A stretch of DNA of 64,000 nt, taken from the NCBI RefSeq assembly GCF_900111765.1, contig NZ_FOIB01000011.1, positions 186,001 through 250,000 of the forward strand, written 5' to 3'. Origin of the DNA: Myxococcus fulvus. Its GTDB lineage: Bacteria; Myxococcota; Myxococcia; Myxococcales; Myxococcaceae. Below, piece by piece: positions 47,802-64,000 of the stretch. Both the position numbers and the translations under genes were made by a program. Under the pieces are notes generated by a model. The model saw nothing but the letters and a program-made list of their open reading frames with translations, made no database searches and was not told the DNA's origin. Each line of letters begins with the position of its first letter. The stretch's first letter is position 1.

Positions 47802-48164
47802 GGGGGCGACCTGGTTTCGACGGGGGCAAGGAAGTTCGAGACGCGTGCCGAGCTTGTCAGGTAGCTCGTAAATCCAACCCGGCAAAGACACAAAAGCCAA
47901 CGACAACGTTGAGCTCGCGCTGGCTGCCTAAAAACAGCTCTTAGTGCGCGGTCCCCCAGCTCTCGGCCCGTGGGGTTGGGATCGACCGTCATAATGCGGG
48001 CTGGCTGCCGAGGGTGCCTGGACCCGAGGTGGCGAGACCTATCCAGGACCGGCTCCAGGAATCCCGTCCGTGGGAGTCTTGGGGACGTAGCAAATCGCGG
48101 ACTACGCACGTAGGGTCGAAGAGCGGAAGGCTTTCGGACGCGGGTTCGATTCCCGCCGCCTCCA
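47802..48164 (+). ncRNA. ssrA: Transfer-messenger RNA (tmRNA)
   Basis: The 5' end GGGGGCGACCTGGTTTCGAC and the 3' end with T-arm GGTTCGATTCCCGCC and acceptor CGCCTCCA are diagnostic. The acceptor arm pairs GGGGGCG with CGCCTCC (one G-U); the genome continues ACT, so CCA is not fully encoded. The tag reading frame is 47896-47928 with stop TAA at 47929: ANDNVELALAA, preceded in the protein by the tmRNA-borne Ala. It rescues stalled ribosomes with SmpB (10071-10559), and the LAA terminus targets products to ClpXP or ClpAP. Length 363 nt is normal for the one-piece form. Confidence 0.97.
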
Positions 48165-48174
48165 CTGAGTGAGA

Positions 48175-48210
48175 AGCCCAGCAGCCGTGAGGTTGCTGGG
48201 CTTTTTGTTT
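48175..48210 (+). terminator. Rho-independent terminator of ssrA
   Basis: A 12-bp stem AGCCCAGCAGCC / GGTTGCTGGGCT with a GTGA loop, followed by ttttgttt, starting 10 bp after the mature 3' end of the tmRNA. Confidence 0.92.
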
Positions 48211-48371
48211 GCCCTCTTGAGCCCATAAGCCCTCAGTTAGCCCTCTTGCCTCTAGTTCAGAGCGTGGCCGGAGGGCTAGGCCGAGCCGTAGCCGTCCGGT
48301 CAGCGACGTGGCGTGAGCGGTTGAAGATGGACGAGGTCCGTGCCCGACGGACGTCGCGACCGGAAGGGCGT

Positions 48372-48872
48372 TCAAAGCGAGAATTGGAGGTGTGTCTCGG
48401 GCGGACCGGTGGTCTGCCGACGCTTCCACTCGTGCGGCAGCAGCTGTGAAATGCGCGAGTTGGGATGCGTCTGGACGCGCAGCGTTGACGCCGTTGGCCT
48501 CGCAGGTGGCCACCAGCGCGTTAAAGCCCGCGAGCTTCTCTTCCGCGGCCTCGTGCCCGACACAGAGGAAATTCTTCCGGCCCAGGGCTGCTTTTCTCAG
48601 CGCCGCCTCCGAGCGGTTGTTGTCCAAGAGCAGTCGCGCATCCTCGATGAAGCGAGACAGTGCGTCCCATTGCTTCGTCGCATGGGAGAGGGCCTGCCCC
48701 AATGGACTCTTTGGCGGGTATCGAGGCGTCTGAGCTGCGAGCCACGTTCGCAGACGCGCGAGAATGGGAGCGCTGCACTCCTGGCGCAGCACTCGGTGAG
48801 CATCGGTGCCCACGACGCCCGCGTCACGCGCCTGGGCTTCCACGCAGAGTTCGAGGATGAGGTTCGTGGCCG
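48372..48872 (-). pseudogene. IS66-family transposase C-terminal remnant, frameshifted
   Basis: Minus-strand translation of 48872-48490 reads like the IS66 DDE transposase end: PKSPLGQALSHATKQWDALS, LLLDNNRSEAALRKAALGRK and NFLCVGHEAAEEKLAG, up to CEANGVN. The continuing family sequence (LRVQTHPNSRISQLLPHEWK) is in another frame, down to a stop at 48372, so a small deletion near 48485 has broken the frame. No N-terminal half, TnpA/TnpB genes or terminal repeats are seen. The remnant is cut off 4 bp before the stop codon of the M3 peptidase gene. Confidence 0.85.
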
Positions 48873-48875
48873 GGC

Positions 48876-51140
48876 CTATCGGAGGCCGCGCTGGCGCATC
48901 AGGGCCTCGCTGGTGGCGTCCCGGCCGCGGAACGCGCGGTAGCCCTCGAACGGGTCCACGGTGTTGCCCACGGAGAACACGTGCTGCCGCAGCCGCGCCG
49001 CCAGCTCGGGGTCGTGCAGCCGCCGGACCTGTCTGAAGGCCTCGAACGCGTCGGCGGCCAGCATTTCCGCCCAGAAATATCTGTAGATGCCGGCGGCGTA
49101 CGCGTTGCTCGCGAAGACATGGCCGTAGTGCGGTATCCGGTTGCCCATGCCGACCTCCGCCGGGGCCCCGAGCTGCTGGAGCGTGTCGCGCTCGAACACG
49201 TCCGGGTCCAGGGGCTGTTCCTTCGCCAGGTGCAGCTTCATCTCCACCAGCGCTGAGGCGAGGAAACTCACCATGTAGAAGCCCTGGTTGAACGTCTCGG
49301 CCTTCTGGATTTTCGCCAGCAGGGCCGGCGGCATCGGCTTGCCCGTCTTGTGGTGCAGCGCGAAGCGCCCCAGCACCTCGGGCGTCGCCACCCAGCGCTC
49401 CAGCAACTCGCCCGGAAACTCCTGGTAGTCGCTCACCACCCGGCCGCCGCTCAGGGAGGGATAGGACACGTTGGAACTCAGATAGTGCAGGGCGTGGCCG
49501 AACTCATGGAAGAGTGTCTCCGCGTCGCGCCAGCCGACCAGGGCAACCTCGCCGGCTCCTGGCTTCACGAAGGGCATATTCGTCGACACGATGGGGGTGA
49601 CTTCTCCCCGGAACCGCTCCTGGATGCGGAACGGGTCGCTCTGGCCGCCGTTGTACTTGCCCTGGCGCGCATAGGGGTCGAAGTACAGGAGCCCCACGTG
49701 ACGCCCGCTGGCGCGGTCCTTCACCTCGAAGACGCGCACGTCGGGGTGGTAGACGGGCACGCCGTCCGCGGAGGCGAAGGTGAAGCCGAACAGCTCGCCG
49801 GCCACCCAGAACATGCCCTCTCGCAGCTTCTCGAGCTGGAGGTAGGGCTTCACCTCGGTGTCGTCGAAGTCGTACTTCGCCTTGCGCACCTTCTCCGCGA
49901 AGTAGCGGTAGTCCCACGGCGCGATGTCCTCCGTCAGTCCGGAGCGCCGGGCCAGCGTCCGCATCGCGGCGACGTCCGCGCGCACCTGGGCGACGGAAGG
50001 GGCCCAGGCGTCCATCAGCATCTTCAGGGCGCGCTCGGGCGTCGCCACCATGGTCGCCTCGAGCTGCCGGTGCGCGTACGTCGGGAAGCCCAGCAGCCGG
50101 GCCTGCTCGACGCGCAGGGCGTGGATCTCGCTGACGATGGCGTTGTTGTCGTGCGCGTCGCCGTGGTCGCCCCGGCTGTCGTAGTTGCGCCACACTTTCT
50201 CCCGCAGCGCCCTGTCGTCCAGGTACGTGAGGAAGTCCGCCACGGCCGAGCGGGTATTGGACACCACCCACCGGCCCTTCAGGCCGCGTGTCTCGGCTTC
50301 GGTTGCCCCTGCCTTGCGCAGGGCCTCCGGAAGTCCCTCGAGGTCCGCCTCGTTGTCGATGACCACCGCGTCCGCCTCGTCGGCGCGCACGTTCTGACTG
50401 AAGGACGTGTAGAGGGTGGCGAGTCGCTGGTTGAGCTCGGCGATGCGCTTGCGGCCCGGAGCGTCGAGCTTCGCGCCGGAGCGGGCGAAGTCCTGGTAGT
50501 AATACTGGACGAGACGCCGCTGCTCGGGCGTCAGCCGCGCCATCTCGGGCGAGTCGTGGATGGCCTGGACGCGATGGAGGAGGGCGAAGTCCTGGGCCTG
50601 CTCGTCCCAGAAAGCCGCCAGCCGGGGCTCCATGACGCGCTCGACCTGCTGGAAGTCGGGCGTGTTCATCACCTTGGACCAAGCGCTGTAGACCTCGTAG
50701 ACGCGGGTGAACGTCCGGCCCGCGTCCTCCATCGCGGCGATGGTGTTCTCGAACGTGGGGGCCTCCTTGGTGCGGACGATGGCGGCAATCTCGCGCCGGT
50801 TCTCCTCCATCGCGACCTCGAACGCCGGCTCGAACTGCTCGACCTTCACCCGGTCGAAGGGCGGCACTCCGCCATAAGGGCCCGCCCAGGGCTCCAGCAG
50901 CGGGTTGGCGGGGAGGGCCGGAACCGCCCGGATTTCTGGCACGTCGAGGGTGCCTGTCTCATGCCGGACCGGCTCACCCCCGGTCGTCTTCACCGACGCG
51001 GTCTCTTTCTTCACCTCGCCGGTCTGGTGCGCGCCCGCTGAGCAGGCCTGCGAGGTGAGAGTGGCGAGAGCGAGGGCCACGAACGTCGCGAATGTACGAC
51101 CAATCCACGTCGGTTCGATGCGCGCGATTGATTTCTCCAT
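48876..51140 (-). CDS. M3 family oligopeptidase (Dcp-like) lipoprotein
   Basis: 754 aa; ATG at 51140 with gaggagg upstream. N-terminal signal with lipobox-like TSQACSAG (Cys about 33), so probably a lipoprotein, whereas enteric Dcp is soluble. The M3 thimet-oligopeptidase fold covers the rest, with the zinc motif FHEFGHALHYLSS at about 543-555 and the substrate-binding IPHYGHVFASNAYAAGIYRY near 690. Cleaves short peptides. Its stop codon abuts the IS66 remnant, and an AraC regulator gene lies upstream on the same strand. Confidence 0.93.
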   Translation of the reverse strand: MEKSIARIEPTWIGRTFATFVALALATLTSQACSAGAHQTGEVKKETASVKTTGGEPVRHETGTLDVPEIRAVPALPANPLLEPWAGPYGGVPPFDRVKVEQFEPAFEVAMEENRREIAAIVRTKEAPTFENTIAAMEDAGRTFTRVYEVYSAWSKVMNTPDFQQVERVMEPRLAAFWDEQAQDFALLHRVQAIHDSPEMARLTPEQRRLVQYYYQDFARSGAKLDAPGRKRIAELNQRLATLYTSFSQNVRADEADAVVIDNEADLEGLPEALRKAGATEAETRGLKGRWVVSNTRSAVADFLTYLDDRALREKVWRNYDSRGDHGDAHDNNAIVSEIHALRVEQARLLGFPTYAHRQLEATMVATPERALKMLMDAWAPSVAQVRADVAAMRTLARRSGLTEDIAPWDYRYFAEKVRKAKYDFDDTEVKPYLQLEKLREGMFWVAGELFGFTFASADGVPVYHPDVRVFEVKDRASGRHVGLLYFDPYARQGKYNGGQSDPFRIQERFRGEVTPIVSTNMPFVKPGAGEVALVGWRDAETLFHEFGHALHYLSSNVSYPSLSGGRVVSDYQEFPGELLERWVATPEVLGRFALHHKTGKPMPPALLAKIQKAETFNQGFYMVSFLASALVEMKLHLAKEQPLDPDVFERDTLQQLGAPAEVGMGNRIPHYGHVFASNAYAAGIYRYFWAEMLAADAFEAFRQVRRLHDPELAARLRQHVFSVGNTVDPFEGYRAFRGRDATSEALMRQRGLR

Positions 51141-52563: not shown

Positions 52564-52985
52564 GCAGCGCCGTACACAGACGCATTCAAGACGCAGCTGG
52601 TGAAGAGGATGGTGGGCCCGAGCCCGGTGAGTGCCGCGACACTGGCCCGGCAAGTGGGAGTGGCCCAGCTGACGCTGTCGCAGTGGTTGCGTGCAGCGAA
52701 TAGGGGAGCGGGCATGACGCCCTCGTCCGACGAGAAGAAGCCCGTGCCCGCCCCCGTGCCGAAGAAGTGGACGCCCGAGGAGAAGCTGCGCGTGCTGGCG
52801 GCTGCCCAGGAACTCAAAGGGCGATGGAGGAAGTCAGCCACGGCAGGGGACCGGCGGTGCGGTCCGCACACTTGGCTGGCCAATCAGCTGTCCGAAGTGG
52901 ATCGGCGCCGAATCCTGCGGGTGGCCAACCGCGAGGAGTTCCGGGACGTCTTGCCCAAGCAGATTGTCCCCGGCTTCGCTTCCAC
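52564..52985 (+). pseudogene. IS3-family transposase remnant, orfA joined to part of orfB
   Basis: The plus-strand frame starting at YTDAFKTQLVKRMVGPSPVS and continuing LARQVGVAQLTLSQWL is an IS3-type OrfA helix-turn-helix, followed by KKWTPEEKLRVLAAAQELKG. It then runs directly into an OrfB-like segment (GDRRCGPHTWLANQLSEVDR and RRILRVANREEFRDVLPKQI), which in intact elements lies much further on. After VPGF the match ends. There is no start codon in frame before a stop and no DDE region, so this is a deletion relic. The same frame continues to 53061 as noise. Confidence 0.75.
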
Positions 52986-53115
52986 CTTCGCCGCTGACTA
53001 CGAAGGTCTCTGTGCTGCGCGGATCGTTGCATCGGCGCTCTCAGCTTATCTGGCCGGATGACGCCGTCACATACCACCGGGGAGGGTGGCTCTACCACCA
53101 GGGGGTGATGGTTCT

Positions 53116-53129
53116 CTACACGCCTGTAG
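53116..53129. promoter_or_regulatory. Short palindrome upstream of the DISARM operon
   Basis: CTACA-CGCC-TGTAG, a perfect 5-bp inverted repeat with a 4-bp spacer, 30 bp before the drmD start. The adjacent 53077-53110 also has a near-direct repeat (taccaccgggg / taccaccaggggg). These could be operator elements, but the sites are short and may be chance. Confidence 0.3.
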
Positions 53130-53159
53130 CGGCATGTATCTCCCGTGCCAATCGCTCCC

Positions 53160-56100
53160 ATGCCGTGCGCGGGTGATATCGCGCAGGTCCGACACCGTCA
53201 TTACTTGGTCAATGAGGTCATCGCTCCTTCGGATGTCCGGGAGCAACACACCCTCGTTCGACTCACATGTCTCGATGATGACGCACAGGGACGTCCACTG
53301 TCTGTCTTGTGGGAGCGAGAGCTCGCTGCTCGGGTCATCCGGCCTCACCAGGGTGGACTGGGACCTCCTGCGCGTTTCGATGAGCCGCGGCACTTCGCCG
53401 CGTATCTGCATGCACTCAAGTGGAGCTCCGTCACCGCCACCGACGCGCGGCTCTTCCAGGCGCCGTTCCGCGCGGGCATCCACTTGATGAATCACCAGCT
53501 CACGCCTCTCAAGAAGGCGCTCGAGCTGCCTCGGGTGAATCTCTTCATCGCCGATGACGTGGGCCTCGGAAAGACCATCGAGGCAGGGCTGGTGCTGCAA
53601 GAACTCATCCTCCGCCAGCGCGTGGACCGCGTCCTCATCGTCTGCCCGGCGTCGGTGACGCTCCAGTGGCGCGATGAGATGGAGAAGCGCTTCGGTCTGC
53701 GCTTCGAAATCTTCAACAGCGAGTTCGTCTCCCGCCGCCGTCAGGAGCGCGGCTTCCAGGTCCCCGTCTGGGCCACGCACTCCCGCTTCATCGTGTCGTA
53801 CCAGACGCTGCGGCGCAGCGAGTACTTCGAGCCGCTGAAGACCCTCCTGGAGGAGAAGGGTCACCACAAGTCCTTGCTGGTGCTCGACGAGGCGCACGTC
53901 GTCGCGCCCGCGTCGGCCAGCCGGTACGCCATCGACACGGAGACCACTCGCAGCATCCGCTCCCTGGCGGAGCGCTTCGAGCACCGACTCTTCCTCTCCG
54001 CCACGCCTCACAACGGCCACTCCAACAGCTTCTCGGCGTTGCTGGAGATGTTGGACCCACAGCGCTTCACGCGGGGCACCCGCGTCCGCGAATCCCAGCT
54101 GGCCCCCGTCATGGTGCGCCGGCTCAAGGGCGACCTTCGCGCCCTGGGCAGCTCACAGCGCTACCCCGAGCGGCACGTGGTGGGCGTGCGCCTGACGCAT
54201 GTCTCGGGACGCTGGCACGCCGAGTGGCTCGCACCGGACGGAAAGACCGTCGAGCAGCGTGTCGAACTGGGGGAAGCCTCCGCCCCGGAGCTGGAGCTGT
54301 CCCAGAAGCTCGCGCGCTACACGGAACTCATGGCGCCCGGCACGAAGCAGGGGCGCCTGGTCTTCATCAACCTCCAGAAGCGCCTCCTCTCCAGCATCGA
54401 GGCGTTCCACCGCACCCTCTCCGTCCACGCGGCGGCCTTTGGCTCGGGGCAGTTGGTTCCAGACGGCGGAACTCTTACCGGCGACACGGCTCCTGAGTCT
54501 GAGGAGCACGGCGAGACGGACGACGCCCTCGAGCTGTCGTTCGCGGAGACCATCCGCGAGCACAGTCAGGACCTGTCCGCCAGCGTCCAGGCGCGCAAGC
54601 TCCTGGATGAGATGCTCAAGCTGAGCGCCCGGCACCGCTCGGCCCGGGACGCGAAGCTGCGGGCCCTGCTCCACTGGATTCGCGAGCACCAATGCCCGCT
54701 CACCCGAGGCGCCGAGTGGAAGCCCCGCCGGGTCATCCTCTTCACCGAGTATGGCGACACACTCCGCTACCTCAAGGAACAGCTCACTGCCGCCTTCGAG
54801 GGGACCCAGCGGGGGGATGAGCGCATCCTCACGCTGACGGGCGGCATCGATGACGTGAAGCGCGCGGAGGTGCAGGCCGCCTTCAACGGCTCGATGGAGG
54901 AGTTCCCTGTGCGGGTCCTCCTCGCGACCGACGCCGCGCGCGAAGGCATCAACCTGCAAGGCCACTGTGCGGACCTCTTCCACATCGACGTCCCGTGGAA
55001 TCCCTCACGCATGGAGCAGCGAAACGGTCGCATCGACCGTGCCCTGCAACCCGCGTCCACCGTGCGCTGTGGCTACTTCGTCTACGGCCAGCGCGCCGAG
55101 GATGCGGTGCTCGACACCCTCGCTCGCAAGGTGGAGACGATTACTCGTGAGCTGGGCAGCCTGGGCTGCGTGCTGATGGACCAGATGCACGACGCCCTCG
55201 CCTCGGGCATCACGAAGGGAACGCTGGAGCGCGTCTCCCGCGCCGCGACCTCGACTCGCACGGAGGTGACGAAGCGGGAGCTGGAGCCCCAGCGCACGCT
55301 CCAATCCCTGCGCAAGGAACTGGATTCGATTGGAGAACTCCGCGAGCGCAGCGGCAAGGTGATGGACTTCAATCCCGCCCTGCTGCGCGACGCACTGGAC
55401 GTGGGGTTCGAGCTCGCCGGCGCGGGCCGCTTGGAGCGGGAGGCCATCACGGAAGAGGGCCGGACGCTGGAGGCCTGGAAGGTCCCCGCGCTTCCTGCCT
55501 CGTGGAGCACGACCCTGGATTCCATTCGTCCGCGCCGGGCGCACGACGAGGCCACGTGGGAGTGGCGCAAGCGTCCCCTATCTCCCGTCGTCTTGGAGGC
55601 ACCTCCAGGCGTCTCCAGCAAGCTCGTCCACCTGCACCTGTCCCATCCGCTCGTCCAACGGGTGCTCCAGCGGTTCCTGGCCCAGGGGTTCTCCGCGAAC
55701 GACCTGAGCCGTGTCACGGTGGTCCAGACCCAACGCGACGCCGTGGCTCGCGTCATCGTCTTTGGTCGGTTGTCGCTCTTCGGCGAGGGCGCCGCGCGGC
55801 TCCATGACGAGGTGGTCTCTGTTTCCGCAAGGTGGCTGGACGGCGGCGGCCGCGGGCACCTGAAGCCCTTCGCGGACGAGGCGGACCGCAAGGTCATCGA
55901 CCAACTGGAGACCACGCTGGCGGAAGCGCCCGCGCTCTCCGCGATACCGAAGGCCGTCCAGAAACGGCTGCTTGCCAGTGCCGAGTCCGACTTCTCGAAG
56001 CTCTGGCCCGCCATCGAGGAACAGGCCTCGGTGAGAGAGCAGGGGGCTCGCAAGAAGCTGGCGGCTCGCGGCGCGTCCGAAGCCAAGGCGCTGACACAGA

Positions 56101-56339
56101 TTCTCCTGACGCAGCAGGAGGCCATCCAGGAGGCCTTGAGCGCGCAGCTCGAACTCTCGCTCGATGCCCAGGCCGAGAAGGACCAATGGAGGAGGGACAA
56201 GGTGCACCTCGAACAGCGATTGACGGCGCTCGGAAGGGAGTTGGTCGAACAACCTGAAGCCTTGAAGGCCACCTATGCCGTGCGGGTTGCCCGTCTGGTG
56301 CCCGTGGGCATGGTCTACCTGTGGCCGGGGGCGCGCTGA
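53160..56339 (+). CDS. drmD: DISARM SNF2-like helicase DrmD
   Basis: 1059 aa from the ATG at 53160 (MPCAGDIAQVRHRHYLVNEV); an in-frame GTG at 53145 adds five residues. SNF2/superfamily 2 motifs are all present: Walker A DDVGLGKTIEAGLV (about 134), DEAH in LLVLDEAHVV (about 241), SATPHNGHSNSF and C-terminal motif V/VI LATDAAREGINLQG ... NPSRMEQRNGRIDR. A helical C-terminal region of about 300 residues follows. In class 1 DISARM this gene stands first, followed by the methylase, as here. It overlaps drmMI by one base (TGATG), indicating coupled translation. Confidence 0.88.
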   Translation: MPCAGDIAQVRHRHYLVNEVIAPSDVREQHTLVRLTCLDDDAQGRPLSVLWERELAARVIRPHQGGLGPPARFDEPRHFAAYLHALKWSSVTATDARLFQAPFRAGIHLMNHQLTPLKKALELPRVNLFIADDVGLGKTIEAGLVLQELILRQRVDRVLIVCPASVTLQWRDEMEKRFGLRFEIFNSEFVSRRRQERGFQVPVWATHSRFIVSYQTLRRSEYFEPLKTLLEEKGHHKSLLVLDEAHVVAPASASRYAIDTETTRSIRSLAERFEHRLFLSATPHNGHSNSFSALLEMLDPQRFTRGTRVRESQLAPVMVRRLKGDLRALGSSQRYPERHVVGVRLTHVSGRWHAEWLAPDGKTVEQRVELGEASAPELELSQKLARYTELMAPGTKQGRLVFINLQKRLLSSIEAFHRTLSVHAAAFGSGQLVPDGGTLTGDTAPESEEHGETDDALELSFAETIREHSQDLSASVQARKLLDEMLKLSARHRSARDAKLRALLHWIREHQCPLTRGAEWKPRRVILFTEYGDTLRYLKEQLTAAFEGTQRGDERILTLTGGIDDVKRAEVQAAFNGSMEEFPVRVLLATDAAREGINLQGHCADLFHIDVPWNPSRMEQRNGRIDRALQPASTVRCGYFVYGQRAEDAVLDTLARKVETITRELGSLGCVLMDQMHDALASGITKGTLERVSRAATSTRTEVTKRELEPQRTLQSLRKELDSIGELRERSGKVMDFNPALLRDALDVGFELAGAGRLEREAITEEGRTLEAWKVPALPASWSTTLDSIRPRRAHDEATWEWRKRPLSPVVLEAPPGVSSKLVHLHLSHPLVQRVLQRFLAQGFSANDLSRVTVVQTQRDAVARVIVFGRLSLFGEGAARLHDEVVSVSARWLDGGGRGHLKPFADEADRKVIDQLETTLAEAPALSAIPKAVQKRLLASAESDFSKLWPAIEEQASVREQGARKKLAARGASEAKALTQILLTQQEAIQEALSAQLELSLDAQAEKDQWRRDKVHLEQRLTALGRELVEQPEALKATYAVRVARLVPVGMVYLWPGAR

Positions 56340-59300
56340 TGAGCGGCCAGAGTCTTGGCGGGGACGTCGAGCGTCGCTATCACCAGACCTGGATGGGGAT
56401 GGCGCAGCCCATCGAAGGACTGGTGGTCTCCATCCCGGTCCTCGAAGACGCGCAGTGCATGCAGCGCCTGCCGGTGTCCGCGCAATCGCGGTTCGTCCTG
56501 CTGGCGGGCAGGGATGCCCCTCGCGTGACGGATGTCCCGCGCTTCCTCCGGGAGGTGCTGGGCTATACCGAGGATGATTTCACCACGAGGTTTCCGGAAG
56601 ACCTCCAGCTCGACATCGCGGAGGGGCAACAGACCCTCAAGCCCACACGGGGACTGTTGCGACGCGGGCCTCCTCCCGCGAAGCCCGAAGGGCTGCCGGA
56701 TGACTCCACGCACATCAGCCGCGCCGCGGAAGGCTTCTCGCTCCTGACCTGGGAGCTGCCGGTCGGGTTGGACCTGGACAAGAAGGAAGACACCACGGGC
56801 GCATGGTTCTACGAGCCCACCGCCAAGTTCGACCGACTGCTGCGCGCGGCCCGTGTCCCCATCGGCCTGCTGTTCAACGGGGACTCCGTGCGCCTGGTCT
56901 ATGCGCCCCACGGAGAGACGTCAGGGCACATCACCTTCCGGTTCAAGGACCTCGTCACCGCCGGCGGTCGTCCACTGTTCGACGCGATGGTCATGCTCCT
57001 GCACGCGCGCCGCTTCTTCGGTGTGCTGCCCGAGCATCAGCTTCCCTCGCTCCTGGAGCAGTCACGCCGCCGGCAGGCGGATGTCACCGACGAGCTGGCC
57101 GACCAGGTCCTGGAAGCGCTTGGCATCCTTCTCACGGGCTTCGAGACGGCCGCTGAACGGGATGGCTCCCGGGCCCTGGACGACGCGCTCTCACGAGGTG
57201 AGGCCCATGTCTACGGCGGGCTCCTCTCCACGCTTTTGCGGCTGGTCTTCATCCTCTATGCGGAGGACCGGGGTCTGCTTCCCGTGGGCCAGGAGCCCTA
57301 CCGCGACGACCTGTCGGTGAAGGCACTTCACGCGCAACTCGTCGAGGACTCCAGCCAGTACCCCGACTCGATGAACCGACGGTTCGGTGCGTGGCCTCGG
57401 TTACTGGCGCTCTTCCGGTGCATCTACCTGGGGGCCTCGCACGACAAGCTGCAAATGCCGGCACGGCGTGGACAACTCTTCGACCCCGACGAGTTCCCCT
57501 TCCTGGGGGATGCGAGCTCCGTCGATGCGGAGATGGAAGCGCGGGTGCCTCCCATCGATGACGAGACGGTCCTCCAGGTACTGGAACGGCTCGTCTTCCT
57601 CAAGGGGCAGCGCCTGAGCTTCAAGTCGCTCGATGTGGAGCAGATCGGCTCCGTGTACGAGGGGCTGATGGGCTTCCACGTGAAGCGCCTGACCAGTGCT
57701 GGAGTCTGCCTCAAGCCCTCGAAGGTCTGGGTCTGCGTGGATGACGTCCTGGCCCAGCCCGCGAAGCGGCGTGCGGCATGGCTGGAAGAGGAGGCGGGCC
57801 TCGACGCGAAGGCGGTGAAAGCCCTGTCGAAGGCGCTGGAGCAGGCCTCCACGCAGCAGATGGTCCTGACCGCGCTGGAGCCGTACCGTGTGAGGGGGAC
57901 CGAGACGCAGCGGGCATCCCAGTGGGTCCTCCAGCCTGGCGACGAGCGTCGACGGACCAGCAGCCATTACACGCCTCGAAGCCTGTCAGCGCCCATCGTC
58001 CGCCGGGCTCTAGAGCCTTTGCTCAAGACGATGGGGCCACAGCCGTCTTCAGAACGACTCCTCAACTTGAAGATCTGCGACCCGGCCATGGGGTCGGGGG
58101 CGTTCCTGGTGGAGTCCTGCCGCTTTCTCGCGGACCAGGTGGTCGCCGCTTGGACACGTGAGGGCGTGCTGCAGCGCGACAAGCACGAGGACGAGGTGAT
58201 GCGGGCTCGCCGGCTGGTGGCCCAGCGATGCCTGTACGGTGTGGACAAGAATCCGTGGGCCGTGAAGCTCGCGAAGCTGTCGCTGTGGCTCGTGACCTTG
58301 GCGAAGACCGAGCCCTTCACTTTCCTGGACCATGCGCTCAAGTGTGGGGATTCACTGGTCGGGCTCGACCTGGAGCAGCTTCAAGCGTTCCACTGGGCTC
58401 CGGCGAGCAAGAAGCAGTCGGAGCTGCCCTGGGCGTTCATCTCGCAGGCGCTGAAGAGCTCACTGGAGAAGCGCGAGGAGATCCTCCAGCTCGCGCTCGA
58501 CCTGGAAGGGCCTGCGCGCAAGCCGCTGCAGTTGGACCTGGAGCCCGGCCGGATGAAAGAGGGGCTTCTCCGAGACGCGGACTCGGCGCTGGGGGACATC
58601 AAGCGGATCGCCAATGCGTGCGTCGGGGCGTTCTTCGCCCATGGCTCGGACAAGGCTCGGGAGAAGGAGCGCGTCCGTCGGTTGGACTTGATCGGGACGT
58701 GGCTGTCCAAGGCAAAGAATGGGGTGCTGCCTCCCATGCCAGCGGACATCGCGGCGTTCTCCTCGCCGTCATCGACGTTCCACTGGCCGCTGGAGTTCCC
58801 GGAGGTTTTCCACGGGAGACGGCCGGATCCGCTCGACAACGAGCAGCCCAACAAGGCTGCTTGGGTCGATGGGTTCGTGGGGAACCCTCCGTTCGCTGGA
58901 AAGAACGCCATCGTCGAGACGGGCGGAGAGAACTACCTTCCTTGGCTCCAGGCTGTGCATGAGGGTGCGCACGGCAACGCGGATCTCTCCGCGCACTTCT
59001 TCCGCCGCGCGTTCCATCTGCTGGGGGAACACGGCAGTTTCGGATTCATCGCCACCAACACCATCGCGCAGGGGGACACGAGGGCCACGGGGCTGAAGCA
59101 CCTGGTGGACCACGGCGGCCACCTCTACGACGCCGTGCGCTCCATGAAATGGCCGGTAGATGGCGCCAACGTCTCGGTGTCTGTGGTGCATCTGGCGAAG
59201 GGGCATGTCTCCCTGAATTTGGAGCCTCGCCTTGAGGGGCTGTTCGTGAAACACCTCAACTCTCGACTGAGAGGAAAACCCGAGCGAGCAGATCCCGTGG

Positions 59301-60253
59301 CACTCACCGCGAACATAGGGAAGAGCTTCCAGGGAAGCATCGTCCTTGGAATGGGGTTTGTATTGAGCCCCGAACAGCGCGCGACTCTTGTTTCGAAGTC
59401 ATCAAAGAACGCGGCGCGCATCTTTCGCTACGTGGGGGGCGAGGAACTCAACTCCGACCCGAGTCCAGAACTCGAAAGGCACGTCATCAACTTCGGGCAG
59501 ATGGAACTACTGGAGGCCGAGCGCTGGCCGGAACTCATTCGCATCGTTCGGGAGTTGGTGAAGCCTGAGCGAGACAAGGTCAAGGACAGAGGCGCGAAGC
59601 AGTGCTGGTGGCAATTCATCCGACCTCGCCCCGAACTCTATCAGGCGCTCCGCCCGCTAGGCCGTTGCCTCGCGACCTCCCGACACTCGAAGCACTTGAT
59701 ATTCTCGTGGCAACCGTCGTCTGTTGTATTCAGCGAAGCGGTCATTGTCGTTCCCGTCGAGCAATCCCACTGGCTGACGGCGTTGCAGTCACGGGTGCAT
59801 GAGGTCTGGGCGCGTTTGCTGTCATCCTCCATGCGCAACGACCTTCGGTACGCACCGAGCGACTGCTTCGAAACCTTCCCTTTCCCAAACTCCGCAAGCA
59901 CCTCAGCGCTCGACGCGATAGGTGAACGGCTCCATTTTGAGCGCAGCCAATACATGCAAGCCCAAAACATCGGCCTGACGACGACGTACAACCGGCTCAA
60001 GGACAAGTCGGTCACCGACACCTCGACGCAGTGCCTGCGGGACCTGCACGTGGCTGTGGACCAGGCTGTCCTGGAGGCCTACGGATGGACGGACATCCAC
60101 GTCCCTCCGTACTGCGGCGCCACTCCCAAACAGCTCGAAGCCTTCGAGGACGAGGTTCTCGACCGCCTCTTCGACCTGAACGCGCAGCGTGCCCACGAGG
60201 AAGCCCACCCCGCCGCCCGCCGTCCCTCGAAGTCCCGCGCCCAGACCGCGTGA
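56339..60253 (+). CDS. drmMI: DISARM adenine-specific DNA methyltransferase DrmMI (Eco57I/PglX-like)
   Basis: 1304 aa, ATG overlapping the drmD stop. SAM-binding motif I is CDPAMGSGAFLVESC (about 581) and the catalytic motif is GNPPF (about 849), as in N6-adenine methylases of the Eco57I/type IIG group. The 570-residue N-terminal region and the C-terminal target-recognition part have no nuclease motif that I can identify. In DISARM the methylase marks host DNA as self. Codons and GC drop in about 59200-59950, the likely recognition domain (two sampled 60-base lines are 55% and 53% GC, against roughly 70% in drmD). The stop overlaps the drmA GTG (GTGA). Confidence 0.87.
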   Translation: MSGQSLGGDVERRYHQTWMGMAQPIEGLVVSIPVLEDAQCMQRLPVSAQSRFVLLAGRDAPRVTDVPRFLREVLGYTEDDFTTRFPEDLQLDIAEGQQTLKPTRGLLRRGPPPAKPEGLPDDSTHISRAAEGFSLLTWELPVGLDLDKKEDTTGAWFYEPTAKFDRLLRAARVPIGLLFNGDSVRLVYAPHGETSGHITFRFKDLVTAGGRPLFDAMVMLLHARRFFGVLPEHQLPSLLEQSRRRQADVTDELADQVLEALGILLTGFETAAERDGSRALDDALSRGEAHVYGGLLSTLLRLVFILYAEDRGLLPVGQEPYRDDLSVKALHAQLVEDSSQYPDSMNRRFGAWPRLLALFRCIYLGASHDKLQMPARRGQLFDPDEFPFLGDASSVDAEMEARVPPIDDETVLQVLERLVFLKGQRLSFKSLDVEQIGSVYEGLMGFHVKRLTSAGVCLKPSKVWVCVDDVLAQPAKRRAAWLEEEAGLDAKAVKALSKALEQASTQQMVLTALEPYRVRGTETQRASQWVLQPGDERRRTSSHYTPRSLSAPIVRRALEPLLKTMGPQPSSERLLNLKICDPAMGSGAFLVESCRFLADQVVAAWTREGVLQRDKHEDEVMRARRLVAQRCLYGVDKNPWAVKLAKLSLWLVTLAKTEPFTFLDHALKCGDSLVGLDLEQLQAFHWAPASKKQSELPWAFISQALKSSLEKREEILQLALDLEGPARKPLQLDLEPGRMKEGLLRDADSALGDIKRIANACVGAFFAHGSDKAREKERVRRLDLIGTWLSKAKNGVLPPMPADIAAFSSPSSTFHWPLEFPEVFHGRRPDPLDNEQPNKAAWVDGFVGNPPFAGKNAIVETGGENYLPWLQAVHEGAHGNADLSAHFFRRAFHLLGEHGSFGFIATNTIAQGDTRATGLKHLVDHGGHLYDAVRSMKWPVDGANVSVSVVHLAKGHVSLNLEPRLEGLFVKHLNSRLRGKPERADPVALTANIGKSFQGSIVLGMGFVLSPEQRATLVSKSSKNAARIFRYVGGEELNSDPSPELERHVINFGQMELLEAERWPELIRIVRELVKPERDKVKDRGAKQCWWQFIRPRPELYQALRPLGRCLATSRHSKHLIFSWQPSSVVFSEAVIVVPVEQSHWLTALQSRVHEVWARLLSSSMRNDLRYAPSDCFETFPFPNSASTSALDAIGERLHFERSQYMQAQNIGLTTTYNRLKDKSVTDTSTQCLRDLHVAVDQAVLEAYGWTDIHVPPYCGATPKQLEAFEDEVLDRLFDLNAQRAHEEAHPAARRPSKSRAQTA

Positions 60254-63200
60254 GCCCTCCCATGAATGCCTCTGACACGGGAGCGGTCCGCTCCCACCTC
60301 ATCGATGCGCTCGAAGCGGACCTCGTGGGTCCGTTCCACAAGCCTCCAGGTGCTCCTGTCTCGGACGCCCCGGAGGTGCTTCGCACGCCACCGTCCCGCT
60401 GGTACCTGACGGGCTTCCTCGTCCCTCTCGACCAGGGCGTCATTGAGGATGACCCCGACGACGAGGAAGACGACCTGGCCGCGGGCAATGACGAGGACGA
60501 CGAGGAGTCCTCCCGTCCCGACCCGACCGCCAAGAAGGTGCGCCGCCTGCCCGCGTCCATGGGCCTGTCCGTCTTCGTCCCCGCAGGCACGTCCCAGCTC
60601 ACCGCCCATGTCTGCTGGGCGGACTACCAGCGCATCGATGCAGAGGGGCGCAAGCAGTGGCGCCGCACCTTCCATCAACGCACCGTCACCCTGCGCCTGC
60701 ACGACGCGACTCTGCGGGAAGGACTGTACCTCCAGGACAGCGGCGGCCTGCGCCTGGAAGGTCACGTGGAAGAGACGCGCGAAGGCGAACTCGCGGTCGC
60801 CATCTTCCTCGTCAACGCACGCCCTCCCACCAGCACCTCCGCCGACCGGGATGAGGCCTATGCCTTCCAGACCCACCTCGCCCTGGAATGCGTGCAGGGC
60901 TTCGTCGGCCGACAGGACTCCAGCGACGCCAGGAGCGAGGACGACGACGACCTTGTCAACGACCTCCAGTTCCGCGACCGCCAGCGGTGGGCGGTTGGCC
61001 ATGGCATCTCCGTGCGCGTCCCATCCACTTCCGTCCCCGTTACCCGCGTGGAAACGGATTGGCTGCCACGCGTCGAGGTGCTCCCTGTCGAAGCGCGGCA
61101 GCTCGACGAAGTCATGGTGGGCATGGAGCAACTCGCCGCGTTCACGACACCCTCGGAGGCCGTGGCGGCCTTGCTTCCCCTGGTCCGGGCCTACCGTGAA
61201 TGGGTGGCCGCCCAGGCCACGCTCTCTGTTGGCAGCAAACGCCGCGAGAAGACACGGGATGAGCTTATTCGCGGGGCTCGACGCGCGGCCGATCGCATCG
61301 AGGACGGCATCCAACTCCTGGCCCGGGAACCTCTCGCCTTCGACGCCTTCCGCTGGATGAACAGCGTCATGGCCCAGTCGGAACGCAAGGTCCGGCAGGA
61401 CGAGGCGCCCAAATGGCGACTCTTCCAGCTCGCCTTCATTCTGCTCAACCTCCCCTCCGTCGAGGACGAAGGCCACGCGGACCGTGAGCTCGTGGAGCTC
61501 ATCTTCTTCCCCACCGGCGGCGGAAAGACGCAGGCCTACCTGGGACTCATTGCCTTCACCTTGCTCCTGCGTCGCCTCCGAGGTCAGTCACACCTCCACG
61601 GCGGCCTGGGCGTGGCCGTGCTGCTTCGCTACACGCTGCGGCTGCTCACCCTCGACCAGCTCGGTCGCGCCGCGACACTCATCTGCGCGCTCGAAGTGCT
61701 CCGTCAGCAAGAGCCGAAACGCCTGGGCGCCGTGCGCTTCTCCATCGGACTGTGGGTCGGCCGCTCTGCGACCGCGAACACGCTGGAACAGGCCTCCACG
61801 CAAATCACCGAGTACAAGAACGACAACAGCGCCCGCGCGCAATCTCCGTTCCCGCTCGCCACCTGTCCCTGGTGCGCCACTCCATTCGAACGGGAGTGCT
61901 TCATCCTCCGGCCCTCCAAATCCAGGCCGGAGGAAGTGCTCGTCGGCTGCGCGAACATCGCATGCGCCTTCAACCTCGGCCGCAACCCGGAAGGCCTCCC
62001 CGTCCTCTTCGTCGACGAGCAGATCTACCGCGAGCTGCCGTGCTTCCTCGTCGCCACCGTGGACAAGTTCGCCATGCTGCCGTGGCGTGGAGAGACGGGC
62101 CTGCTCTTCGGTCGTGTCCTCGGTCGCACCGGCAAGCGCTTCGTCGGTCCGTGCAACGATGCCGCGGACGTGAGGGCGGCGCTCGTGATGCTCCCGAAGG
62201 GACTGCCTCCCCCGGAGCTCATCGTGCAGGACGAACTGCACCTCATCTCCGGCCCGCTGGGCTCCATGGTGGGCCTCTACGAAGGCGCCGTCCTGACGCT
62301 CGCGCCCCGGGCGAAGTTGGTGGCCTCCACCGCCACCGTCCGCCGCTCCCGGCAACAAGTCAGTCGCCTCTATGGCCGGGACGTCGCGCTCTTCCCTCCG
62401 CCCGGTGTGGATGCCTCCGAGACGTTCTTCGCCTCCGTGGGCAAGAAGGGCGCGCGCCAATACCTGGGCGTGGCGGCGCCCGGGCGGCCCATGAAGGCCC
62501 TCCTGCTGCGCGTCTATGTCAGCCTGCTCGCGGCCGCCGCGCGCGGAGAACAACTCCACGGCGCCGTGAACGCGGACCCGTACCTGACGCTCGTCGGCTA
62601 CTTCAACAGCCTGCGCGAGCTGGGCGGCATGCGCCGGCTGGTCGAGGACGAGGTGCGCCGACTGGTGATGGACCGCGTCCGCCGTCGTCCCGAGGACTTC
62701 GGCAAGGACGCCGAGCATCCCTGGTACCGCGGCAGGACCATCCGCGGCGAGCCCATCGAACTCACCAGCCGGGAGAAGACCGCCGACATCAAGGCCTCGA
62801 AGAACCGCCTGGAGCTCACGCACGGCCTGCCCCAGAGCATCGACGTCGTGCTCGCCAGCAACATGATCTCCGTCGGCGTGGACATCGACCGGCTGGGGCT
62901 CATGGTCGTGGCGGGACAACCCAAGACGACCAGCGAGTACATCCAGGCGTCCAGCCGCGTGGGCCGCAAGCTGAACAAGCCCGGCCTCGTGGTGACGTGT
63001 CTGAACGCAGCCAAGCCCAGAGACCGCAGCCACTACGAGCGCTTCGGGACCTACCACGAGTCGTTCTATCGCTTCGTCGAAGCCACCTCGGTGACGCCCT
63101 TCTCGGCGCCGGCGCTCGACCGGGGGCTCGCGGGCGTGGTGGTGGCGCTGGGCCGGCTGCTGGACACATCCATGACCGCGCCCCTGGAGTGGAAGTCCCT

Positions 63201-63600
63201 GCAGGCGCACCGCGACGTGCTGGAGCAAGCGCTCGAGACCCTGGCGAAGCGCGCGGGCCGAGGACTGTCCACGGAAGAGGCGGAGCGCGCCAGCGACATC
63301 GTGATGCAGCGCGCGCGAGGCCTGCTCGACTCGTGGCACAACATCATCGAGCAGGCGAAGAAGGACGCCGCCCAGCGCGCGTACTCGCCCTACGACCCGG
63401 AGGGAAAGGGGCTCAAGCCCCTGCTGCGCGGCTTCCTGGACCGCACCGAGAACCTCACCCAGGACGAGCTCAAGTTCGAGGCGCCCACGTCCATGCGTGA
63501 CGTGGAGTCCTCGGTGCACCTGTGGATTTCACGGCAACCCCTGGGCGGCTACCGCGCCCCGAAGGCCGCGACGGAGGAGGTGGCGCATGACGAACCGTAG
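60250..63600 (+). CDS. drmA: DISARM helicase-domain protein DrmA
   Basis: 1116 aa from a GTG that overlaps the drmMI stop (GTGA); an ATG at 60262 is the alternative. An acidic stretch near residues 65-95 (EDDPDDEEDDL) precedes the helicase core. Core motifs: Walker A FPTGGGKTQAYLGL (about 420), DELH at about 661 (VQDELHLISG), STAT and LASNMISVGVDIDRLGLMVV with QASSRVGR as motif VI. A four-Cys zinc site lies between (CPWC ... CANIAC). DrmA is one of the core DISARM proteins and acts with DrmB. Overlaps drmB by 14 bp. Confidence 0.88.
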   Translation: MSPPMNASDTGAVRSHLIDALEADLVGPFHKPPGAPVSDAPEVLRTPPSRWYLTGFLVPLDQGVIEDDPDDEEDDLAAGNDEDDEESSRPDPTAKKVRRLPASMGLSVFVPAGTSQLTAHVCWADYQRIDAEGRKQWRRTFHQRTVTLRLHDATLREGLYLQDSGGLRLEGHVEETREGELAVAIFLVNARPPTSTSADRDEAYAFQTHLALECVQGFVGRQDSSDARSEDDDDLVNDLQFRDRQRWAVGHGISVRVPSTSVPVTRVETDWLPRVEVLPVEARQLDEVMVGMEQLAAFTTPSEAVAALLPLVRAYREWVAAQATLSVGSKRREKTRDELIRGARRAADRIEDGIQLLAREPLAFDAFRWMNSVMAQSERKVRQDEAPKWRLFQLAFILLNLPSVEDEGHADRELVELIFFPTGGGKTQAYLGLIAFTLLLRRLRGQSHLHGGLGVAVLLRYTLRLLTLDQLGRAATLICALEVLRQQEPKRLGAVRFSIGLWVGRSATANTLEQASTQITEYKNDNSARAQSPFPLATCPWCATPFERECFILRPSKSRPEEVLVGCANIACAFNLGRNPEGLPVLFVDEQIYRELPCFLVATVDKFAMLPWRGETGLLFGRVLGRTGKRFVGPCNDAADVRAALVMLPKGLPPPELIVQDELHLISGPLGSMVGLYEGAVLTLAPRAKLVASTATVRRSRQQVSRLYGRDVALFPPPGVDASETFFASVGKKGARQYLGVAAPGRPMKALLLRVYVSLLAAAARGEQLHGAVNADPYLTLVGYFNSLRELGGMRRLVEDEVRRLVMDRVRRRPEDFGKDAEHPWYRGRTIRGEPIELTSREKTADIKASKNRLELTHGLPQSIDVVLASNMISVGVDIDRLGLMVVAGQPKTTSEYIQASSRVGRKLNKPGLVVTCLNAAKPRDRSHYERFGTYHESFYRFVEATSVTPFSAPALDRGLAGVVVALGRLLDTSMTAPLEWKSLQAHRDVLEQALETLAKRAGRGLSTEEAERASDIVMQRARGLLDSWHNIIEQAKKDAAQRAYSPYDPEGKGLKPLLRGFLDRTENLTQDELKFEAPTSMRDVESSVHLWISRQPLGGYRAPKAATEEVAHDEP

Positions 63601-64000
63601 GAAGTGGACCCGGGCCCGCTCGACGCGGCCGCCGGATGGGCGCGTGCGTCAGAGCCAGGTGGTCTCCACCTTCGGTCCGGGCAGCATGCTGGACCTGCTG
63701 AACGACGCGGTCCTCGTGGGCGGCCTGGACTTCTGGCGCCTCAAGGGGCAGGGCGAGGTGGTCAACGAGCCACGGCTCTTGGAGATCGTCGAACCGCTCT
63801 ACCACCGCAACAAGTGGCCGCTCAGCAAGGAGGCCCCCTTCCGCAAGCCCCCCGCTGGGGATGAGCGGGAACCGACGGAGTCCTGCGGCATCCAGGTGTA
63901 TGAGTTTCCGCGCTGGTTCGTCTGCCAGAACCCCCACTGCCGCACGCTGGTGCGGGCCAACAGCCTGGAGCGTGTGAACCAGGAGTACCGCCACCGCTGC
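63587..64000 (+). CDS. drmB: DISARM DUF1998 protein DrmB, 3' end outside window
   Basis: The ATG at 63587, preceded by ggaggagg, opens a frame that runs to the last base (138 codons visible). The N-terminus MTNRRKWTRARSTRPPDGRV leads into RQSQVVSTFGPGSMLDLLND, which fits DrmB/DUF1998 proteins. A Cys pair CQNPHC and a terminal HRC may be part of a zinc site. The position directly after drmA is the DISARM order; drmC (phospholipase D family) would be expected next, outside the window. Confidence 0.8.
   Translation, partial: MTNRRKWTRARSTRPPDGRVRQSQVVSTFGPGSMLDLLNDAVLVGGLDFWRLKGQGEVVNEPRLLEIVEPLYHRNKWPLSKEAPFRKPPAGDEREPTESCGIQVYEFPRWFVCQNPHCRTLVRANSLERVNQEYRHRC

Follow-up and report, generated by a model that had tools for sequence, protein, structure and literature searches.

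Genes and features of the locus

The window, meaning the whole stretch of 64,000 nucleotides that was analysed (C11:186001-250000), lies on a 386-kb contig of a 10.8-Mb Myxococcus fulvus genome with 100% completeness. Positions 53160-64000 are occupied by four long ORFs on the forward strand, none of them with an internal stop, and the last runs across the window edge. The features of the locus are as follows:

47802..48165, forward strand: ssrA, the tmRNA gene, found with ARAGORN
52600..53061, forward strand: short ORF just 5' of drmD with a weak match to a transposase-type HTH (HTH_Tnp_1), NCBIfam score under the cut-off
53160..56339, forward strand: drmD, SNF2/RapA-like helicase of 1059 aa starting at ATG 53160; ORF open from GTG 53145
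56339..60253, forward strand: drmMI, MmeI/PglX-like N6-adenine methyltransferase, likely starting at ATG 56339; ORF open from GTG 56321
59171..59920, forward strand: predicted target recognition domain (TRD) of DrmMI, residues 951-1200 counted from GTG 56321
60250..63600, forward strand: drmA, YprA-family SF2 helicase starting at GTG 60250, the 'short' DrmAS form of NCBI
60430..60558, forward strand: acid-rich linker of DrmA, 17 Asp/Glu per 43 residues
63587..64000, forward strand: first part of drmB, starting at ATG 63587; 615 aa in all (L008:588-2435)

The original prediction had read these ORFs as an SNF2 helicase, an adenine methylase with an NPPF motif, a second helicase with DELH and the start of a DUF1998-type protein, on a single strand with overlaps of 1, 4 and 14 bp. 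The ORF coordinates reproduce these overlaps exactly: the drmD stop ends at 56339, the position of the drmMI ATG (1 bp), the drmMI stop ends at 60253 with the drmA GTG at 60250 (4 bp), and the drmA stop ends at 63600 with the drmB ATG at 63587 (14 bp). When the contig was read beyond position 64000, as had been proposed, drmB was completed; its end is at window-equivalent position 65435 (C11:251434-251435), and the DUF1998/MZB domain is present.

Assignment to class 1 DISARM

PADLOC and NCBIfam models assigned the four proteins, each to the family that had been named for it, with DrmD, DrmA and DrmB above curated cut-offs. DrmD scored 1030 bits with PADLOC and 1071 bits with NF038317 (cut-off 610), and Pfam recognized SNF2 and Helicase_C domains. 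DrmMI scored 1245 bits with PADLOC and contains the Pfam domains MmeI_Mtase and MmeI_TRD, the latter covering residues 1011-1190. The second helicase, DrmA, reached 838 bits with PADLOC and 1103 bits with NF038325 (cut-off 950), and DrmB reached 547 bits with NF038324 (cut-off 240) and carries the MrfA Zn-binding (MZB) domain PF09369, formerly DUF1998. Since the model scores are so high, chance matches can be discounted. Motifs were intact in DrmD (GLGKT, DEAH, QRNGRIDR), DrmMI (DPAMGSGAFL, NPPF) and DrmA (GGGKT, DELH, SSRVGR), and the four-cysteine cluster of DrmB was intact and conserved. Sequence searches of DrmA and DrmB led to no solved relatives other than the Serratia DISARM chains 7s9v/7s9w, with E=1.5e-165 for DrmA against 7s9v chain A and E=1.4e-93 for DrmB against chain B.

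The operon contains the DISARM core genes drmA, encoding a YprA-like SF2 helicase, and drmB, which is a gene of its own and encodes the DUF1998/MZB zinc cluster, along with both genes characteristic of class 1, drmD for the SNF2-like helicase and drmMI for the adenine methyltransferase. The third core component, a PLD-family nuclease gene (drmC) after drmB, is not intact in the window genome. No class 2 genes (drmMII cytosine methylase, drmE) were found in the operon, and its downstream neighbour encodes an EGF/FG-GAP protein. Judged by gene content and by the order drmD-drmMI-drmA-drmB, the operon is a genuine class 1 DISARM system, a family already described, as originally predicted. Assignment of the helicases or methylase to unrelated families, or a completed fourth gene lacking DUF1998, would have spoken against that prediction; neither was seen, because the genes fall in DISARM families and drmB carries the DUF1998/MZB domain.

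Divergence is concentrated in the predicted DrmMI target recognition domain

Copies in Myxococcus (e.g. M. xanthus AM003, M. eversor, M. qinghaiensis), Corallococcus and Citreicoccus have an identical gene order and share 90-97% protein identity in DrmD, DrmA and DrmB. They differ from the window copy in drmC, as described below, and in the TRD of DrmMI, where protein identity between copies is 63-86% and no pair among 13 genomes exceeds 86%. Calculated per 50 residues, the mean pairwise dS of drmMI was 0.12-0.30, rose to 0.77-1.10 at residues 951-1200, and fell back to 0.28 and then 0.23 after residue 1200. In drmD, drmA and drmB, no such segment had a dS above 0.36. The most novel point of the analysis is that this four- to five-fold jump is confined to DrmMI residues 951-1200, with sharp edges on both sides. 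The TRD stretch has a GC content of 0.56-0.59 versus about 0.65, with a dip to 0.60 at 59000-59999.

Hypervariability of this kind could also arise by relaxed constraint or misalignment, with no exchange of cassettes. The dN of the TRD is indeed raised too (0.38 at residues 1101-1150), and some pairs are saturated. However, relaxed constraint cannot lift synonymous divergence, here from about 0.22 to 0.77-1.1 between sharp edges, and it also sits poorly with TRD lengths that stay at 250-255 aa and with the near-site incompatibility of drmMI, which departed from permutation (0 of 500). We therefore consider this explanation unlikely. In the PHI-like test of drmD, drmA and drmB, adjacent informative sites were no more compatible than far ones, a pattern that is neutral as to recombination in these genes. 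The rise in dS indicates imported or long-kept alleles and not merely loose constraint, and the pattern implies that putative specificity cassettes are swapped on a constant DrmD-DrmA-DrmB core.

Because the partner proteins do not vary along with the TRD, the simplest reading points to DrmMI alone as the probable carrier of sequence specificity. By analogy, the TRD of PglX sets both methylation and defence specificity in BREX (PMC11341690). Phages without the methylation motif are still restricted by DISARM, according to work cited in PMC9142583, so the specificity may concern self protection only. A hidden nuclease was sought in the N-terminus of DrmMI, and the AlphaFold model (pLDDT 84) gave no significant Foldseek match (best E 0.92).

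An ssrA-linked site and its history

Homology between the window and 13 same-genus genomes covers only about 53000-65459 and stops sharply at either end. Nucleotide identity is mostly 91-94%; the flank on the ssrA side shows 81-83% identity in G017, G023 and G024. In 10 of the 14 genomes, the cassette is located 3' of ssrA and in the same direction, at a distance of 0.9 to 84 kb. G009 and G003 carry it at another place or on a different contig; in both, 26-30 bp matching the 3' end of ssrA are repeated about 200 bp 5' of drmD. In G008, G007 and G003, the 3' end of ssrA has a tyrosine integrase at a distance of 120-170 bp, and G013 has one next to a copy of the ssrA end; no integrase was found near ssrA in the window genome. 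In the Myxococcaceae MAG L108, ssrA is situated just past drmC in the opposite orientation. The picture is that of a cassette occupying an ssrA-linked variable site, and tyrosine integrases may have moved it. Carriage by plasmids or phages was dropped as a candidate, as megablast of DISARM against these gave no match and viral contigs hold only distant DrmA relatives (29-44%).

Several other elements were observed around the site. Copies of the ssrA 3' end, 23-41 bp long, are scattered in many same-genus genomes (up to about a dozen each) and probably represent att sites left behind by elements that target ssrA, or shared tRNA-like ends. A degenerate IS66 transposase remnant (47989-48843, reverse strand; PF03050, with NF033517 under cut-off) overlaps ssrA on the opposite strand, and the short ORF at 52600..53061 on the forward strand is probably an IS66-related remnant as well. 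The window genome has an M3-family oligopeptidase gene (48876-51140, reverse strand) in the gap between ssrA and the DISARM operon. Copies with 86-88% identity occur elsewhere (e.g. G000:C6, G026:C3, G000 being the window genome), and G004 has none between ssrA and drmD, which suggests a later insertion. Inverted-repeat elements 5' of drmD (about 53060-53130 and equivalents), possibly operators, vary among relatives: the repeat is perfect in G002 (TACATACCCCGCTCGGGGTATGTA), takes the form GCAACATTCC..GGAATGTTGC in G009, and is unclear in the window copy. A conserved palindromic operator was rejected, the signal being strong in G002 and G009 only. A sigma-70 promoter scan gave no match.

With rpoB and two flanking genes as yardsticks for divergence across 13 genomes, the DISARM dS of the window genome was 0.17-0.21 when compared with G004, G017, G023 and G024, whereas that of the two flanking peptidase genes was 0.09-0.13 versus G004 and 0.36-0.48 versus the other three. 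DISARM dS did not track rpoB dS (rho 0.05 over 78 pairs, which are not independent of each other), and copies from Corallococcus and Citreicoccus are almost as similar as copies from within the genus. The near-constant DISARM dS against varying flank dS suggests horizontal exchange. The DISARM tree retains several pairs of the rpoB tree, such as the window genome with G004 at 100/100. Recent horizontal transfer as the whole history was rejected because the tree keeps these well-supported, shallow species pairs; long residence with allelic exchange fits better than recent transfer alone, and would be the best-fitting history. Mean pairwise dN/dS among 13 copies was 0.11 for drmD, 0.135 for drmA, 0.095 for drmB and 0.20 for drmMI. 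The four genes are intact and, on these ratios, under purifying selection.

Truncation of drmC

The drmC gene is a core gene in the original description of DISARM. A phospholipase-D drmC gene had been proposed as something to look for past position 64000; its start would be expected at 65425, 11 bp before the end of drmB, and in the window genome there is only a 26-aa stub, in which homology stops after 12 codons. A 228-aa drmC with an HKD-type motif begins at the expected site in 10 of the 14 same-genus copies, and the one full same-genus drmC that was tested scored 353 bits with the PADLOC DrmC model. The break is near the same place in the sister genome G004 (after 11 codons) and in G014 (after 14), and after about 50 codons in the draft assembly G015. 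The sequence after the break differs among the window genome and these three, and parsimony on the tree requires two losses among 13 genomes. No second drmC was found in the window genome by drmC protein search, and the NF038319 model gave nothing over its cut-off; the genome does have other PLD-family proteins. Directly 3' of the stub is a large EGF-repeat and FG-GAP gene (L008:2631-5180, window-equivalent 65630-68179). G004 has other genes at this position, yet the flank further out is common to both genomes.

Of 80 related loci, drawn from many phyla and searched within 4 kb downstream, 48 had drmC; 15 with at least 1.5 kb of sequence after drmB had no detectable one. A missing drmC is therefore compatible with DISARM membership. 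This survey, together with PMC9142583, which describes drmC as dispensable and frequently absent from DISARM, makes its loss ordinary for these systems.

The loss could alternatively mark the onset of degradation, in a decaying system whose defence is already gone, as the early breaks at nearly the same place in three genomes and the absent integrase near ssrA might indicate. We find this improbable, given that drmC is reported as dispensable (PMC9142583) and that drmD, drmMI, drmA and drmB retain their full length and intact motifs, both in the window genome and in all same-genus genomes that have the genes on one contig. Moreover, dN/dS between the drmC-less sisters, the window genome and G004 (drmD 0.09, drmA 0.10, drmB 0.09), is as low as between drmC-bearing pairs. 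It suggests that the rest of the operon still works despite the stub, provided that the loss is old; the purifying selection may date from before it.

Comparison with known systems and proposed mechanism

The class 1 DISARM system of Serratia sp. SCBI (DrmAB, 7s9v/7s9w) shares the drmA and drmB families with the window operon and differs from it in the drmC stub of the latter. DrmB of Serratia can be aligned over nearly all of the window DrmB. The window DrmA has 1113 aa versus 1325 aa in Serratia and aligns with 7s9v over query residues 88-1090, beginning at Serratia residue 225 and leaving the Serratia N-terminal part unmatched. An EVE-like domain is said to occupy the N-terminal part of class 1 DrmA (PMC12458937). 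DrmAB is autoinhibited (PMC9142583), and the trigger loop responsible is at 176-232 in Serratia DrmA. The 43-residue acid-rich linker of the window DrmA sits in the same place, just before the start of the alignment, and is acid-rich in four relatives as well. From this position, the linker may be the equivalent of the trigger loop.

BREX has a PglX-like methylase (PglX/BrxX) in common with the window operon, whereas its effector gene is absent and DrmMI falls far below the PglX cut-offs. That the operon belongs to BREX or to a related YprA-helicase system (ARMADA, Dpd, Druantia) is scarcely credible: an SNF2 helicase, PglX-like methylase or YprA helicase is common to these systems (PMC12458937) and DrmD also matches the DpdE and BrxH models, but the helicase and DUF1998/MZB parts are on two genes, the DISARM arrangement, the DISARM models are ahead of others by hundreds of bits, and BREX models are far below cut-off.

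The locus is thus very probably best explained as a class 1 DISARM operon in which DrmMI would set the specificity and DrmAB would block, with drmC a stub. From what is known of the family, DrmMI would methylate adenine at N6 within a sequence that its TRD selects, tagging the host genome as self. The DrmAB helicase complex, presumably kept inactive by the acidic loop, would load on unmarked incoming DNA with a preference for 5' single-stranded ends and block or unwind it, and DrmD would act as an accessory SNF2 motor. The DrmAB block may be enough without drmC; given the stub, any destruction of DNA would need host nucleases.

For the Myxococcaceae, we tentatively hypothesize, as a possibility somewhat short of an even chance, that the specificity of the whole DISARM system resides in a swappable DrmMI TRD that recombination exchanges between genomes, while the DrmD-DrmA-DrmB core stays fixed and blind to sequence, and that the system of the window genome works without a nuclease of its own. 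Near-identical operons that vary chiefly in a single methylase domain and in whether drmC is present form a natural allelic series, which would allow DrmMI-only specificity and the role of drmC to be probed in culturable myxobacteria with the rest of the system near constant, and so bears on what DISARM recognizes on DNA and on how the phage genome is destroyed.
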